32,065 bases of DNA from a virus: positions 1 to 32,065 of IMG/VR virus record IMGVR_UViG_3300022665_000643. One strand, 5' to 3'. This document shows positions 3,519-32,065 of the stretch, one piece after another. A program made the translations under genes and the position numbers. A model generated the notes under the pieces. That model did no database searches and was not told the DNA's origin. It worked only from the letters and a program-made list of their open reading frames with translations. How positions within the stretch are numbered: position 1 is the first letter of the stretch; each line of letters opens with the position of its first letter.

Positions 3519-5051
3519 ATGAGTTTTAACTGGACAGCAGGAGACAAAATCACAGCGACTCGGTTGAATCAAATTGATTCAAATACTGAAAGTAGAATCG
3601 GCACAAATGAGCACAATATCTTACAGCTGTATCTTGAGAATTTTTTTGCCAATAAAGTTACTCCTTTTTTGGGATTATTTTTTGATGGATTTTCTGACAC
3701 TACAAAGGCAGATATAAACACAAACACAACGATTGACACCGCAAACAAGAAATTGGATTTGGACGCAACATTCACATCGGGAGTATATGAGAGCATTGTC
3801 ACCTCATTTCAGCAATCAATGAAAACTGCAAAGTTGTGGATTGTAAGAAAAGCAGGAACTTCAAACGTTAACTCAATAGATTTAGAGAAAGACTCAAGCC
3901 AATTTTTATCCATAACCGATGCCGCACAAACAGGATTAGATATTCTTGGTGATATTACTCTTGAAGCGTGGGTCAATATTGAAAGCCAACCTGCTACGGA
4001 TATAGTCTATGGGATAATTTCTAAAAGAGACAGTAGCCCAAGTGGAGAGAACTCTTGGATTTTACAATACCAAGATGTTTCAGGAACAAAAAAGGTATCC
4101 TTATTTCTATTTGATGCTGCTGCCCCTATTGTAAATGTCAACTATATCTTTATTCAAACTTTGACGACAGGAACTTGGGTACACGTTGCAATGACTTGGA
4201 AACAATCAACTGGAACGGCAGAACTTTTTATAGACGGCGTAAGTCAGGGAACTGTCGTTGATACGTCTGCCGCTGATATAAATAATTCAACCACAGATTT
4301 TAGCATAGGACGGGCAGACGCAAAGGTTGGTTTGGAGAGTTTCTTTGACGGCAAAATTGACGAGGTAAGAGTTTGGGACGATATACGGACATCAACAGAA
4401 ATATCTAACAATAAAGATAAACAACTTGTGGGAAATGAAGCGAATTTGCAAGGATACTGGCGATTGAATAATGATTTACTTGACGAAACAGCAAACAACA
4501 ATGACTTAACGAATAATGGCGGGGCAGTATTTTCAACAGATATTTCACCTACATTTGTGGGTGATAAATTTAATCTTGATGCCGCAATTTCAGTGGGCGC
4601 AACAACACTTACAATTGATGGCGATCAAACAGGCGTATTCGCCAATGGAGATACAATTGATATTTCTACCTCTGACAATCTCACAAGAGAAAGAAAAACA
4701 CTGACTGCCGTTCCGACTTTTGCTGCTGGAAAAACAACTCTGACATTTTCCGCCACCGCTAACGCCTTTGGAATAACTGATTTTGTTGAGAGGGTAAATG
4801 TCATTCCGCAGATTTCTTTAGTTGATGTCGGCACTGCCAAAAGTTTTCAAGCAATGACTTATGTGAGATCAGAATTGGGAACTGGGATAGGTTCAACTGG
4901 AAATGGCATTGCAAAGAATGAAGTTGAAGATGAATATGAATTTACCGCCCCTACCGCACAAGAAGATTTGAAAATTAAATTAGACCTTACAAGAAATGAC
5001 ACTAGTTTATCAGTTTTTGCGAAACGACTCGGGGTTGTTGTCAATATCTAA
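3519..5051 (+). CDS. LamG / concanavalin A-like virion adhesin
   Basis: 510 residues. The N-terminus (TAGDKITATRLNQIDSN) looks like a virion anchoring segment. Residues about 125-325 form a LamG/ConA-like jelly-roll: SQFLSITDAAQTGLDI, ITLEAWVNI, TGTWVHVAMTWKQSTGTAEL, FIDGVSQGTV, GKIDEVRVWDDIRT and LQGYWRLNNDLLDETANNN. Such domains bind carbohydrates and act as receptor-binding parts of tails. The C-terminal third is a second beta-rich domain. Base use differs from neighbours: GATC occurs only twice in about 1.5 kb, GAC and ACA codons are commoner, and AT content is higher, suggesting recent exchange of the adhesin. Confidence 0.82.
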   Translation: MSFNWTAGDKITATRLNQIDSNTESRIGTNEHNILQLYLENFFANKVTPFLGLFFDGFSDTTKADINTNTTIDTANKKLDLDATFTSGVYESIVTSFQQSMKTAKLWIVRKAGTSNVNSIDLEKDSSQFLSITDAAQTGLDILGDITLEAWVNIESQPATDIVYGIISKRDSSPSGENSWILQYQDVSGTKKVSLFLFDAAAPIVNVNYIFIQTLTTGTWVHVAMTWKQSTGTAELFIDGVSQGTVVDTSAADINNSTTDFSIGRADAKVGLESFFDGKIDEVRVWDDIRTSTEISNNKDKQLVGNEANLQGYWRLNNDLLDETANNNDLTNNGGAVFSTDISPTFVGDKFNLDAAISVGATTLTIDGDQTGVFANGDTIDISTSDNLTRERKTLTAVPTFAAGKTTLTFSATANAFGITDFVERVNVIPQISLVDVGTAKSFQAMTYVRSELGTGIGSTGNGIAKNEVEDEYEFTAPTAQEDLKIKLDLTRNDTSLSVFAKRLGVVVNI

Positions 5052-9043: not shown

Positions 9044-9210
9044 AAAAAATACACAAATATGGGACAGGGGATGAAGTGCCTAAAGGCGCAGAATATCTCA
9101 CGACAATCGTTCAAGAACAGAGCATCGCGCAAGATAATATCCAAACAGTCACAACGCGATTGGTGTGGCATTATTTTCTTGTTGATGTTGATCAAAAACA
9201 ACATGAATAA
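9040..9210 (+). CDS. Small hypothetical protein
   Basis: 56 residues: MKKIHKYGTGDEVPKGAEYL, then TIVQEQSIAQDNIQTVTTRL and VWHYFLVDVDQKQHE. It shares ATGA with the previous stop and overlaps the next gene start by 8 nt. The N-terminal phrase Y-G-T-G-D-E-V-P-x-G-A-x-Y-L is seen in short phage proteins of unknown role. Probably a small beta fold. Confidence 0.58.
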   Translation: MKKIHKYGTGDEVPKGAEYLTTIVQEQSIAQDNIQTVTTRLVWHYFLVDVDQKQHE

Positions 9211-9469
9211 AATCAGCGAGAAAGCATTTGCTATGCTGTGCTATCTTGTCCTGATGGATCATCACGGACATGGATATATAGATGCTCACCCTTCGTATAT
9301 CGAAGAAAAACTCTACATTCTCAATCTCGGAATCGAGGCGTGGGAATTATTGGACTATCCCAATCAAAGGAAAGTTCTCCAGTATCTCGGGCATTGGAAG
9401 TTTCAAGTCCCCGAAGAGATCAAAAAGCAAGAGGCGGTTCGCAAAAAATATCATGGCGAGAATATATAA
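9203..9469 (+). CDS. Hypothetical early protein
   Basis: 88 residues from the ATG at 9203; an upstream in-frame codon would run back across the preceding gene. Mostly helical: MNKISEKAFAMLCYLVLM, a His/Gly-rich turn (DHHGHGYIDAHPSYIEE), then AWELLDYPNQRKVLQYLGHW. No recognised family. DHHGHGY and DAHP could be a metal site but lack context. Overlaps the next gene by 17 nt. Confidence 0.58.
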   Translation: MNKISEKAFAMLCYLVLMDHHGHGYIDAHPSYIEEKLYILNLGIEAWELLDYPNQRKVLQYLGHWKFQVPEEIKKQEAVRKKYHGENI

Positions 9470-9665
9470 AAAGCATTACACATCATTCAATCGGGAGATC
9501 CTCGGGGAAGTCCTATCGCAAAAAGCCCTTCGTAGTTTGGATCGATTTTATACCCAAGCGAAGGTGATCAGGACTCTTCGGAAACTCCACGATGATCCTG
9601 TCGTGCAATTCAACTATGAAATACAAATCCTTGATCGTAAACCCACCAAAAAAGTGTTGAAGTGA
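9453..9665 (+). CDS. Small basic protein, last gene of the early operon
   Basis: 70 residues from ATG 9453, strongly basic (MARIYKKHYTSFNREILGEV, RSLDRFYTQAKVIRTLRKL). The net charge suggests nucleic-acid binding, but no fold is recognisable. It overlaps the previous gene end and is followed after about 55 nt by a terminator that also overlaps the next promoter, so it ends the transcription unit. Confidence 0.58.
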   Translation: MARIYKKHYTSFNREILGEVLSQKALRSLDRFYTQAKVIRTLRKLHDDPVVQFNYEIQILDRKPTKKVLK

Positions 9666-9719
9666 AAGGGATCCTAATCGATGTGGGGATAAGGTGTGCG
9701 TATGTGTATAAAACAAAGA

Positions 9720-26307: not shown

Positions 26308-26451
26308 ATGTACAAAATAAACGAAAAATTGGCGCAGGCGATTTTAAATTATTTAGGGAGACAGCCCTATGCCGATGTTTGGGAGCTGATAGGCGCCCTG
26401 CAGAATTTAGAGAAAATAAAAACGAGAATAAAAACAGACAAGAAATCATGA
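26308..26451 (+). CDS. Small protein upstream of the prohead protease
   Basis: 47 residues: MYKINEKLAQAILNYLGRQP then YADVWELIGALQNLEKIKTR. One helical domain, no family recognised, although N-Y-L-x-x-x-P-Y-x-x-V-x-x-L-I-x-x-L-Q resembles short phage proteins next to fibres. The stop shares ATGA with the protease start, supporting translation. Codons such as GCG and TTA differ from the protease. Confidence 0.58.
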   Translation: MYKINEKLAQAILNYLGRQPYADVWELIGALQNLEKIKTRIKTDKKS

Positions 26452-27716
26452 CAAAAAAAACCACAAAAAAAATTCTCATCGGATATCTTCAAAAACAGGA
26501 AGGTGACAATCGATCTTTTGAAGTGATCGCATCTACTGATGATCTTGATCGGGAAGGTGAACGAATCGCTCAAGATGGATGGGAACTCGAGAACTACATG
26601 AAGAATCCTGTGATCCTGTGGGCTCACAACAATGAAGCTCCTCCTATCGGGAAAGCGACAAGCGTAAAAATTGAAGATGGCAAGCTCATCATTCGTGGAG
26701 AGTTTGCTAGTGCTGAAGCGAATCCTCTGGCAGAGCAGATTCGGCTTTTGCACAATGAAGGAATCCAACAGGCTGTATCCGTTGGCTTTATTCCTCTTGA
26801 AAGAGAGGGGGAAACAATAACTCGGGCTGAATTGCTTGAGTTATCTTTCGTTCCTGTTCCTGCAAATCCTGAAGCGATGGCGGTTCAGAAACGACTCAAT
26901 CTCGATGAGAGGTTGATCTCTCCGAAGGTCGAAAAGGAGAGCAACATTATCAATTACGATCCAACTAATTTTCGAAACAAAATGTCTAAAATAAAAGTGA
27001 ACGATGAGGCTGAAGAAGCAACAGGCCTCTCAAAAGAACTCGAAGAGATCAAAGTTGATCTCAAGGAAGTTGCTGTCGAGATCATCGAAGAGAAGATTCC
27101 TGCCATCGAGGAAGCTGTCGGGAAACAACTCGAGGGCGAGCAAGTTATCGTAGAGCTCGAGAAGGAAGTCGAGGAGATCATCGACAAGAACATCGATGCC
27201 ATGGAAGAGGCCGTGGTTGAAGATGTTGCAGAAATTGTCGAGATGAATGGCGACAAGCAAGGAGATGCCATCATCGAAGAGGCAGAGATGGAAGTTGAAA
27301 AAGCCATCGATGACGTTGTTGTCGATATCGCAGAAGAAATCGGCACAGCGATTGAACAGAAGGCAGAAGAAATCCTCTCCGCAGTTGAGGAGGAAAAACA
27401 AGCCGAAGCTGAAGAGGCTCTTGCTCCTGTTATCAAGGAAATTGAAGATGAGATCATGAAAGAGATCGAAGATATGCTCATCGAAGAAAAAACAGCAATC
27501 GCCACCGAAGCTGTTGAAGAGGTTGGCACAGGCGAGCCAGATGAGAAGGCAGAGCATGAGGATGAAGATGAAGATGAAGATGAAGAGAAGAAAAAGAAGC
27601 AAGCTGAAATCGATCAGATATGCGATCCCACTGATCCTGCTTATGATCCTAAAAAGTGCGAAGAGATGAGGAAGGAAAATCCGAAAGAGGATGAGGATGA
27701 GGAAAAAAAAGCATAA
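26448..27716 (+). CDS. HK97-type prohead protease with acidic scaffold-like C-terminus
   Basis: 422 residues from the ATG of an ATGA overlap. Residues 1-165 are the S78-type protease: FEVIASTDDLDREGERI, NPVILWAHNNEAPPIGKA (H60), AVSVGFIPLERE (S111) and LLELSFVPVPANPEA. The remainder is a long acidic coiled coil with repeated E-x-x-I-x-x-E/D heptads and a DEDEDEDEE run, suited to act as an internal scaffolding (delta-like) domain. It matures the head by self-cleavage and removal of the scaffold. The last codons contain an A8 tract just before the stop; see the frameshift site. Confidence 0.9.
   Translation: MTKKTTKKILIGYLQKQEGDNRSFEVIASTDDLDREGERIAQDGWELENYMKNPVILWAHNNEAPPIGKATSVKIEDGKLIIRGEFASAEANPLAEQIRLLHNEGIQQAVSVGFIPLEREGETITRAELLELSFVPVPANPEAMAVQKRLNLDERLISPKVEKESNIINYDPTNFRNKMSKIKVNDEAEEATGLSKELEEIKVDLKEVAVEIIEEKIPAIEEAVGKQLEGEQVIVELEKEVEEIIDKNIDAMEEAVVEDVAEIVEMNGDKQGDAIIEEAEMEVEKAIDDVVVDIAEEIGTAIEQKAEEILSAVEEEKQAEAEEALAPVIKEIEDEIMKEIEDMLIEEKTAIATEAVEEVGTGEPDEKAEHEDEDEDEDEEKKKKQAEIDQICDPTDPAYDPKKCEEMRKENPKEDEDEEKKA
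27703..27710 (+). promoter_or_regulatory. Predicted -1 ribosomal slippery site (A8)
   Basis: Eight As read as GAA-AAA-AAA-GCA-TAA in the protease frame, stop at 27714-27716. Slipping back one base gives AAA-AAA-AGC-ATA-AGC and enters a frame open to 28213. The downstream ORF has no ATG, and its conserved domain starts before its first possible GTG, so slippage (or a miscounted A) is needed to make it. Confidence 0.6.
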
Positions 27717-28213
27717 GCCCTGATCTCAAGCAAAGGCCACCTACTTCTGTTCAAACAGTTATTCTCTCCAAGGATAAATTCCCCACTCGGGAGTCAGCAA
27801 GCAAGTGGGTGACAGATCATGATTTCAGGGCAGATAAGGTTGACGAAACCGATGAGTCTTTTCGCTATCGGCAATTCTCGCCCACACTCTGTCGCGAAGG
27901 TTCGGAAAGAACCATTGAATTGACCAAGGGGGTCAAGGCTGTGATCTGCAGAAAAAAAGAGACAAAGAAATCCCGAGGGAGAGGGCTCACTATATCAGAT
28001 CGACTCTTATTGAAAAAAGTTTTTGCGGCGCTGGGCGAAAGCTCTAATCGAGCCGCCAACTCTAGCGGGGAAGGTCGAGATCCCGACAAGATTGTCATTT
28101 CAAAGGGAGAGTTATCCTCCATGCGAAGACAAATCTTGATCGGCATTAAGAATTACGAAGAAGTGCTCGGGAAACTCAAAAGGTATCTCGAGGACTCAAA
28201 AGAAGATGCGTAG
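27710..28213 (+). CDS. XkdF-like C-terminal extension of the prohead protease (via -1 frameshift)
   Basis: 167 codons in the -1 frame. The first conserved segment is VQTVILSKDKFPTRESASKW then VTDHDFRADKVDETDESFRY and RQFSP, the XkdF-type small domain (P-V-x-x-V-I-x-x-K-x-x-x-x-T-x-x-x-A-x-x-W, K-V-D-E-T-x-x-S-x-R-x-R-Q). GTG 27809 would remove its first strand. The rest has a basic linker and a helical end (SMRRQILIGIKNYEEVLGKL). XkdF-type domains are found together with phage proteases in other genomes. It overlaps the capsid gene by 8 nt. Confidence 0.62.
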   Translation, partial: SISPDLKQRPPTSVQTVILSKDKFPTRESASKWVTDHDFRADKVDETDESFRYRQFSPTLCREGSERTIELTKGVKAVICRKKETKKSRGRGLTISDRLLLKKVFAALGESSNRAANSSGEGRDPDKIVISKGELSSMRRQILIGIKNYEEVLGKLKRYLEDSKEDA

Positions 28214-29384
28214 AATTAAAAAACTATCCAGTCGGGAGATGCGAAAGTTCGCTGATGAAATGGTGAAGGGTCGTCTTGAAAAAGAGATCAAGCGCCTCGG
28301 ACTCGACAGGATAGATCGGAAGTTCGGGAATCATCCTTTCCTCTCCGAGAAGGAGATCAAAGGACTCGACAAAAAGGAGAAAGTCGCAAAGTTCATCAAA
28401 GCTGTGTACTGGAAGGATACTGCTACCATGCAGGCTTTGGGTGGCAAGGCTCTTTCCGAAGGTGTCGCGGCCGCAGGTGGCTTCCAAGTCCCTGAAGAGT
28501 TCGCTGCCGAGATCAATAGAATAATCGAAGACTTCGGCCTCATCAGGAAACTTTCAAGGAAGATCACGATGACGACAGACAAGATGCACATTCCCCGATT
28601 GGCTAGCTCCGTTGGAGTTACCTTCCCGGGAGAGAATGTCGCAGGAACAGAGACAGAGCCAGTGTGGGAAGAAGTTTTGCTTCTACCCTCCACCGCTGTC
28701 GGGCTTACAGTCATGTCGAATGAATTGCTTGCAGATGCAAACATTTCAATAGTTGACTTGCTCGCAGAGTTGTTCGGCGAAGCTCTTGCAGGAGAAGAAG
28801 ACAATCAAGGATTCGCAGGAACAGGTGCTCCGTTCACAGGCATTCTCAAGGACACGGGTGGTGTCTTTGAAGTTGTACTCGGTGCAGGTGACACAGACCC
28901 CGCCAATGCTGATGCAGATGATTATCGAGATGCGATCTCGGGAATCAAGCCATGGGCTCTCAAGGGAGCGGGATGGTTCTTGCACAGGACAGTGTGGGGA
29001 GCAGTTCAGAAATTGAAAGATGGAAATGGTGCATTCATTGCTGCGGCTTTGAATCCCATCATGAATCCAGTTGCAGGTTCGCCTCAATCGGACTCCTTCT
29101 TGAATCTCGTTGTCGGCACTCTGTGGGGATATCCTGTCTGGCTTTCAGACAAAATGCCCGCTACAGGAGTTTCGATCAACACCGAGTTTGCAATCTTCGG
29201 GAATTTGACACACCTGTGGTTTGGTGATCGACAAGGTATGGAGTTCACAGTATCCGATTCGGCTACTGTTGGCGCCAATAATACTTTCGAGAGAAACCAA
29301 TCTGCAGTTCGCGTAACCGAAAGGTTCGCTGTCGCTGTCGGACTTCCTGCAGCATTCGCACGACTCAAGACTGCGGCTGCCTAG
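28206..29384 (+). CDS. Major capsid protein (HK97 fold)
   Basis: 392 residues. A charged helical N-terminal arm of about 75 residues (MRRIKKLSSREMRKFADEMV...) is probably removed by the protease near ALSEGVAAAGGF. Then QVPEEFAAEINRIIEDFGLI, RKITMTTDKMHIPRL, GTETEPVWEEVLLLPSTAVG, NQGFAGTGAPFTGILKDTGG and WFLHRTVWGAVQKL show the typical capsomer order, ending in RVTERFAVAVGLPAAFARLK. It forms the icosahedral shell. A strong two-part hairpin follows the stop. Confidence 0.95.
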   Translation: MRRIKKLSSREMRKFADEMVKGRLEKEIKRLGLDRIDRKFGNHPFLSEKEIKGLDKKEKVAKFIKAVYWKDTATMQALGGKALSEGVAAAGGFQVPEEFAAEINRIIEDFGLIRKLSRKITMTTDKMHIPRLASSVGVTFPGENVAGTETEPVWEEVLLLPSTAVGLTVMSNELLADANISIVDLLAELFGEALAGEEDNQGFAGTGAPFTGILKDTGGVFEVVLGAGDTDPANADADDYRDAISGIKPWALKGAGWFLHRTVWGAVQKLKDGNGAFIAAALNPIMNPVAGSPQSDSFLNLVVGTLWGYPVWLSDKMPATGVSINTEFAIFGNLTHLWFGDRQGMEFTVSDSATVGANNTFERNQSAVRVTERFAVAVGLPAAFARLKTAAA

Positions 29385-30960: not shown

Positions 30961-31428
30961 ATGGCGGGATTCGCATCAATCAGAACAAAAATCAAAGCAA
31001 AGCTCATTACGATTGCATCGTTGGCTTTTGTCGCTGATACATTCGAAGACAATCTCGATGGATTCCCTGCTGCGATATTCGATGTATCGGATTCGGAAAA
31101 TGATTTTCTAACTAATGCCGATAATTCGAGGATATATACCTTTACAATTCTAGTATTCGTTCCCTTTGATCAGGATGCCACATTGGGAGGACCCAAGACG
31201 AATAAAGAGGCAACTGATATACTAGATGCAGTAGCGGATGACATAGTAGATGCCTTCGAGAGCGATATTGATCTCGGGGGAGAGGTCGACTGGTGTCTTC
31301 CATTTACAGGCTCTCGGGATGAGGTGGATTCCCCACAGGGACACATGCTCATGCAAGAGCTCATTATAAGTTGTGTAACATCGAAACAAGTGGAAATGCT
31401 CGATCCACATTCTCCCCCTTCTCGGTGA
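30961..31428 (+). CDS. Tail terminator-like protein, 3' end probably chimeric
   Basis: 155 residues, of which about 143 look native: SIRTKIKAKLITIASLAFVA, FPAAIFDVSDSENDFLTNAD, YTFTILVFVPFDQDA and MLMQELIISCVTSKQV. This matches tail terminators, which cap the tail tube and stop its growth. The final residues (EMLDPHSPPSR) are antisense to the tail-tube gene on the other strand, so the true C-terminus lies near 31390 and the rest is produced by the junction. Confidence 0.7.
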   Translation: MAGFASIRTKIKAKLITIASLAFVADTFEDNLDGFPAAIFDVSDSENDFLTNADNSRIYTFTILVFVPFDQDATLGGPKTNKEATDILDAVADDIVDAFESDIDLGGEVDWCLPFTGSRDEVDSPQGHMLMQELIISCVTSKQVEMLDPHSPPSR

Positions 31429-31780
31429 TTGTGAGAGAAGGATGCTGTGCAGTTTGCAGAACGCTGAAGGTGTGAGTGTTAGCCCCGACTTCAGGAGAAT
31501 CCACCACAGTCGCAACTTGCCCGAGAACAGCGAGAAGAATCAATCCGATGTTGTCAGGAGTAGCGATTGCCCGCAACGATCCTTCCATCATTTTCTCAAC
31601 TATTTTTGCATCGATTGTATCCTCAATGACATTCACAGCCGATTCATTGATCGCTTGTGTGATCTTGTCATCGACTGTGAGTTCGAGATGAGGGATGAAG
31701 AATGTCGGGGCAACTGCTATTCCCCTGACGGTTTCTTTTGCGAATCCGACACTTGTTTTTCGTCCAATTTGTTTACTCAT
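31364..31780 (-). CDS. Major tail (tube) protein, N-terminal part, inverted
   Basis: 138 residues on the minus strand: MSKQIGRKTSVGFAKETVRG, IAVAPTFFIPHLELTVDDKI, VNVIEDTIDAKIVEKMMEGS, LGQVATVVDSPEVGANTHTF and LQTAQHPSLTITEKGENVDR. This is the N-terminal half of a siphovirus tail-tube protein; the full protein should be about 250-300 residues. The last six residues before the stop come from the antisense of the tail terminator gene. A real tail tube should lie on the + strand directly after the terminator, so this block is inverted in the window. Confidence 0.75.
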   Translation of the reverse strand: MSKQIGRKTSVGFAKETVRGIAVAPTFFIPHLELTVDDKITQAINESAVNVIEDTIDAKIVEKMMEGSLRAIATPDNIGLILLAVLGQVATVVDSPEVGANTHTFSVLQTAQHPSLTITEKGENVDRAFPLVSMLHNL

Positions 31781-31813
31781 ATTTGTAATGATTGGCGATC
31801 AATTCGCCGATTG

Positions 31814-31921
31814 TTATTTGTTTTCCTTTTCAGCAAGCTCGACCGCTTCTTGCAAGGAACTAGCGCGATAAGTCTTTCCGTACTTCGGAAGGAAGTAAGG
31901 GGTCAGGCCATTGGTTGCTTC
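31814..31921 (-). CDS. C-terminal fragment of a small protein upstream of the tail tube gene, inverted
   Basis: 35 codons on the minus strand ending in TAA: TNGLTPYFLPKYGKTYRASS then LQEAVELAEKENK. It reads as a genuine protein end, 33 nt before the tail-tube ATG, with a GGCGA/TCGCC hairpin between. Its 5' part is lost at the junction near 31921, after which the + strand copy of the closure gene begins. Confidence 0.5.
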   Translation of the reverse strand, partial: EATNGLTPYFLPKYGKTYRASSLQEAVELAEKENK

Positions 31922-32065
31922 TCGAGAGGCAAACATGGACAGCAAACAAATCAACAACTACGGTAATCGCGACAGGAGTGAAGGCATATATCCGACCTCT
32001 CGAAGAAAAGGAATCGACAGAAAATGACTTCCAGTATGGTGAAGAGCATTTCGTTTTAGTTGAGG
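31922..32065 (+). repeat. 144-bp exact repeat, copy 2 (window end, gene fragment)
   Basis: Exact copy of 30198-30341, that is 47 codons of the head closure gene (E-R-Q-T-W-T-A-N-K...), abutting the inverted tail-tube block at 31921/31922. It has no start and no end, so it is not a gene. A one-molecule artefact or an assembly path closing back on itself explains it best. Confidence 0.95.

Follow-up and report, generated by a model that had tools for sequence, protein, structure and literature searches.

In the window (the whole 32,065-nucleotide stretch of viral DNA analysed here), the gene of a predicted prohead protease probably undergoes programmed −1 recoding at a run of A, which would yield a short protease-scaffold protein and a longer form. 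The original prediction had proposed two products made by a −1 slip. Their existence is supported by 19 loci, some of them near-identical, in which an S78 protease and, downstream of it, the same small domain (hereafter the QT domain) share one ORF and one frame, the window being the only split case, and by the sister phage L004, which carries a run of nine As and a −1 ORF; the slippage itself we infer.

The protease gene and its two frames

The features of the region, all on the plus strand, are as follows.

26448–27716, +: S78 prohead protease with an acidic helical scaffold-like region, 422 aa, the putative short form (PF04586, TIGR01543)
27024–27527, +: acidic, almost wholly alpha-helical insert, common to the window and L004 only
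27618–27659, +: motif ICDPTDPAYDPKKC just 5′ of the slip site, retained in L004 as ICDPESEEYDADLC
27703–27710, +: A8, candidate slip site, with the in-phase heptamer A_AAA_AAA at 27704–27710
27714–27716, +: 0-frame stop TAA, a single sense codon after the A-run, with equal spacing in L004 (GAT TAA)
27710–28213, +: −1 frame extension, 167 codons past the slip, ending at the capsid start
27717–27831, +: possible long-range stem, weak, GCCCUGA (27717–27723) with UCAGGGC (27825–27831), 6 nt past the A8
27743–27961, +: QT domain (VQTVILSK...GVKAVIC), a small alpha/beta domain without prior description
27809–27811, +: first GTG of the −1 frame, residue 35 (first strand predicted by AlphaFold2 at residues 13–21)
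28103–28207, +: C-terminal helix directly 5′ of the capsid gene; relatives have this helix in frame with the protease
28206–29384, +: HK97-fold major capsid protein (MCP; PF05065, 1e-42), its gene start and the end of the −1 frame overlapping by 8 nt

The 0-frame product is a predicted prohead protease of the Peptidase S78 family (PF04586), as judged from profile searches (PF04586, E 1e-4, above the gathering score; TIGR01543, 2.5e-8) and from H60 and S111, which are invariant in a 13-sequence protease alignment. S78 proteases work inside the prohead. The insert of ~170 residues, acidic and helical, is present in the window and L004, and the aligned relatives are without it; AlphaFold2 places its helices at residues 193–360, mostly with pLDDT 82–95. 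The ICDP..P.YDP..C motif near the slip site occurs as one copy in each of these two phages and is repeated in the relative L018 (2560–2745), between the protease and the QT domain.

Re-reading of the sequence bore out the original description of the A8 at 27703–27710, followed by GCA and by TAA at 27714, and of a −1 frame open to the TAG at 28211–28213. The 0-frame codons at the protease end are thus GAA AAA AAA GCA TAA, and the two frames overlap by 16 nt, half of which is the A8; the A-run also lies inside the frame overlap in L004. In the phase of the 0 frame, both phages have an X_XXY_YYZ heptamer, A_AAA_AAA (27704–27710 in the window, 4784–4790 in L004), which is a known slip heptamer. 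Both runs (A8 and A9) are also longer than seven As, the length above which A-runs are known transcriptional slip sites, and slippage on poly-A in reporters reached 10% with 7 As, 40% with 9 and 63% with 11 (PMC3711429). A8 in itself is not rare in the window, where eight runs in 32 kb were observed against 4.6 expected.

The −1 ORF beyond the 0-frame stop is judged to be coding. The stretch remains open in only 1 of 2,000 dinucleotide shuffles, and of the forward frames it is the one whose codon usage best matches the genome; tblastn finds it in other phages at 52% identity (E 1e-22), and it is under the constraint described below. The downstream ORF could be a gene of its own with its own start, either by reinitiation close to the TAA or at a non-canonical codon; the −1 frame closely overlaps the stop, an in-frame ATG follows ~35 nt past the stop of L004, and starts poor in Shine-Dalgarno (SD) sequences are normal in the window genome. 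We nevertheless consider two separate genes unlikely, given where the possible starts fall. The conserved stretch VQTVILSKDK (27746 on) begins before the first GTG at 27809, as originally claimed, and a start at that GTG would cost the QT domain, as predicted by AlphaFold2, its first beta-strand and the greater part of its first helix. The earlier claim that the −1 frame holds no ATG proved wrong: there is one at 28121–28123 (...ELSS-M-RRQ...), codon 139 of 168, past the conserved domain, and a start there would yield just 30 residues. The window has no ATG before the QT domain, and relatives with S78 upstream make this domain as a fusion.

No stimulator of slippage common to both phages was found by RNA folding. 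As a candidate downstream pseudoknot or stem, the window offers a single 7-bp long-range pair after the A8 (z −2.5), and this stem is absent from L004. SD-like stretches lie upstream of the slip site in the window (27684–27691, −5.8 kcal/mol) and in L004 (−6.1 kcal/mol), both weak. Most of the start codons checked in the window are without an SD-like sequence, which argues against an SD stimulator, and we do not rely on one; the SD-poor starts suggest an SD-poor host.

The sister phage, the relatives and the origin of the split

L004 is the closest sister of the window, with a capsid protein 69% identical; both phages are uncultured, and the MCP tree pairs them at 100/100 to the exclusion of the in-frame types. 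The original prediction had proposed a comparison of A-tract length with related phages; in L004 the protease ends GGT AAA AAA AAA GAT TAA, with A9 (4782–4790) in the same place as the A8 of the window. Its −1 frame, read from the A9, is open for 68 codons, stops just short of the capsid ATG and overlaps the 0 frame by 13 nt. L004 is without the QT domain and retains a C-terminal helix similar to the one in the window: against the C-helix profile its C-terminal end is the best of 182 L004 ORFs, and it is beaten by 0 of 5,000 shuffles when the window is in the profile and by 6 of 5,000 when it is left out. The split is conserved in one sister, and more distant relatives are in frame. Because the window and L004 share both the frame split and the helical insert, and the relatives outside are in frame and without the insert, the two features probably have a single origin that predates the divergence of these phages, and the −1 frame has stayed open from then on.

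The main alternative raised originally was a homopolymer counting error, in which the true run would be one A longer and protease, QT domain and helix would form one ORF in the window, like that of L018. Relatives as a rule carry the fusion in frame, homopolymers are error-prone, and the 3′ end of the window (31388–32065) looks misassembled. Such an error would, however, have to occur twice, at homologous A-runs of separate contigs, and elsewhere in the window intact ORFs contain four A8 and six A7 runs. It would also have to leave the 0-frame stop exactly one sense codon past the A-run in both phages; simulated loss of one A gives such a one-codon stop in 7% of cases, or ~0.5% for both if independent. 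As the split occurs in two separate contigs and the −1 frame is under strong constraint, plain sequencing or assembly error is very improbable, and we rejected it.

A true frameshift mutation, which would make the C-terminal part a decaying remnant or the A-run a phase-variable switch, accords with the ready mutation of A-runs and with the different run lengths (8 and 9) in the two phages. We hold it very improbable: 30% divergence in the MCP has left the −1 frame undisturbed in both phages, and constraint on the QT domain exceeds that on the capsid protein.

Programmed recoding remains our preferred reading, and the C-terminal domains of its long form would be ancestral. In L018 the protease, the ICDP...YDP...C motifs, the QT domain and the C-terminal helix follow one another in one ORF, with the MCP gene next, and in the capsid relatives L005–L009 and L013 the C-terminal helix is in frame directly 5′ of the capsid gene. 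The next phage in the tree, L106, begins inside the QT domain, with no protease visible. None of ~75 other S78 loci had both an additional −1 ORF and an in-phase A7 close to the stop. L016 has A8/A7 at the protease stop and no −1 ORF, which indicates that A-runs at protease stops can be incidental. Searching with nothing but the protease sequence turned up no close relative, and genome contigs yielded none either.

Some further observations concern the contigs themselves. At the contig end of the window, the start of a tail-tube gene lies on the minus strand (31780–31388), and positions 31936–32061 hold a fragment of a head-tail gene that looks like a second copy, out of order relative to L004; the stretch 31388–32065 is probably a chimeric assembly end. 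At 9169–9670, L004 has the classic G/GT layout, with the ORF of a tail assembly chaperone continued in the −1 frame as far as the tape-measure gene.

The QT domain

Part of the extension is a domain of ~73 aa, which we named after its VQT. AlphaFold2 predicts it with pLDDT 95–98 over residues 11–80, the first strand preceding the first GTG. It is 52–73% identical between the window and relatives. Compared with L106, the QT domain shows 73% identity and a pN/pS of 0.21, and the MCP 56% and 0.39; by this comparison, which is rough with synonymous sites saturated, the domain is under tighter constraint than the capsid protein.

The domain had been called XkdF-like, an inaccurate description: a profile search with the −1 ORF gave no PF14550 match at E up to 10, and we rejected XkdF (Peptidase_S78_2) as its identity. 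In L001, PF14550 matches residues 226–337, outside the domain common to the −1 ORF of the window. No family match to the QT domain was found in Pfam, NCBIfam or PHROG, a PDB fold search gave nothing significant, and no match was found in annotated phages; predicted viral structures gave weak matches, mostly unnamed.

An improved QT profile matches 83 viral loci. In these the domain is fused to head proteases of five kinds (S78, XkdF (PF14550), ClpP-like, DUF2213 and Mu-I), and portals and a capsid protein carry it too; it is N-terminal to the XkdF protease domain in L001, L097 and L107 and C-terminal to S78 proteases elsewhere. Named QT loci are L001, L096, L107, L115, L121, L146, L148, L159, L167, L168 and L174. 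As the domain is fused to such varied head proteins, its partners suggest a shared head-assembly contact, and a shared role in head assembly is probable. Our best guess, a tentative one, is that it anchors the scaffold or protease to the portal or coat. Separately, in L002 (2801–4978) and also in L001, a head gene has an intein-like start (CFRAGTRVFCADGE) and end (VVEGVIVHNC), and in L002 a 281-aa endonuclease-like ORF lies between these ends in a different frame (3825–4670), the host frame also being open.

Proposed recoding and known systems

We propose that most expression yields the short protease-scaffold protein ending in EEKKA, and that a fraction slips −1 at the A8 to continue as EEKK-SISPDLK..., with the QT domain and then the C-terminal helix appended. 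The long form would be ~588 aa and would terminate at the capsid start codon. The slip could occur on the ribosome, by tandem tRNA-Lys slippage on A_AAA_AAA, or during transcription, by RNA polymerase adding one A; we hold the two routes about equally probable, and they would give an identical peptide product. The occurrence and efficiency of slippage, and the fixed product ratio suggested originally, are inferred. The added domains may anchor or tune the scaffold or protease in the prohead, with the short form serving as bulk scaffold. In a broader and speculative picture, to which we give somewhat less than even credence, an ancestral in-frame protease with a capsid-proximal module became recoded on gain of the helical insert, the A-run sets the ratio of bulk to anchored scaffold-protease, and the QT domain is a general head-assembly module of unrelated proteases and portals.

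Recoding in the structural genes of tailed phages is already known for coat and tail proteins; we found no report in the open-access literature of recoding of a prohead or head-maturation protease. If our reading is true, phages could set the ratio of protease/scaffold variants inside the prohead, and before-and-after forms of the gene are supplied for testing. A −1 extension of this sort would be overlooked or misnamed by annotation pipelines.

Among known systems, the nearest in logic is the tssM1 gene of Citrobacter rodentium. It has A11 before a stop, and slippage there, which adds an A, restores a C-terminal domain and gives two length variants at a functional ratio, both forms being needed (PMC4256274). 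The window resembles it in having an A-run shortly 5′ of a stop, followed by a C-terminal domain found in frame in relatives. It differs in run length (A8/A9 versus A11) and in being a phage head gene instead of a secretion gene, and slippage has been demonstrated in tssM1. In phage capsid genes, −1 frameshifting is known from Lactobacillus A2, T3, T7 (10A/10B) and Listeria A118/A500 (reviewed in PMC5009743), and in these, as proposed here, one gene gives two C-terminal variants of a head protein by a −1 shift. There the coat proteins are affected, with an Ig-like domain added in T3 and A2, whereas in the window an S78 protease-scaffold gene would be extended by the QT domain and a helix. The G/GT frameshift of tail assembly chaperones (lambda, HK97) differs from the window in gene, slip heptamer and function. 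Also close to the window are the in-frame S78-QT proteases (L018, L100, L065), which have the same domain order directly 5′ of the MCP gene, but which are encoded in one frame, without the A-run and without the helical insert.
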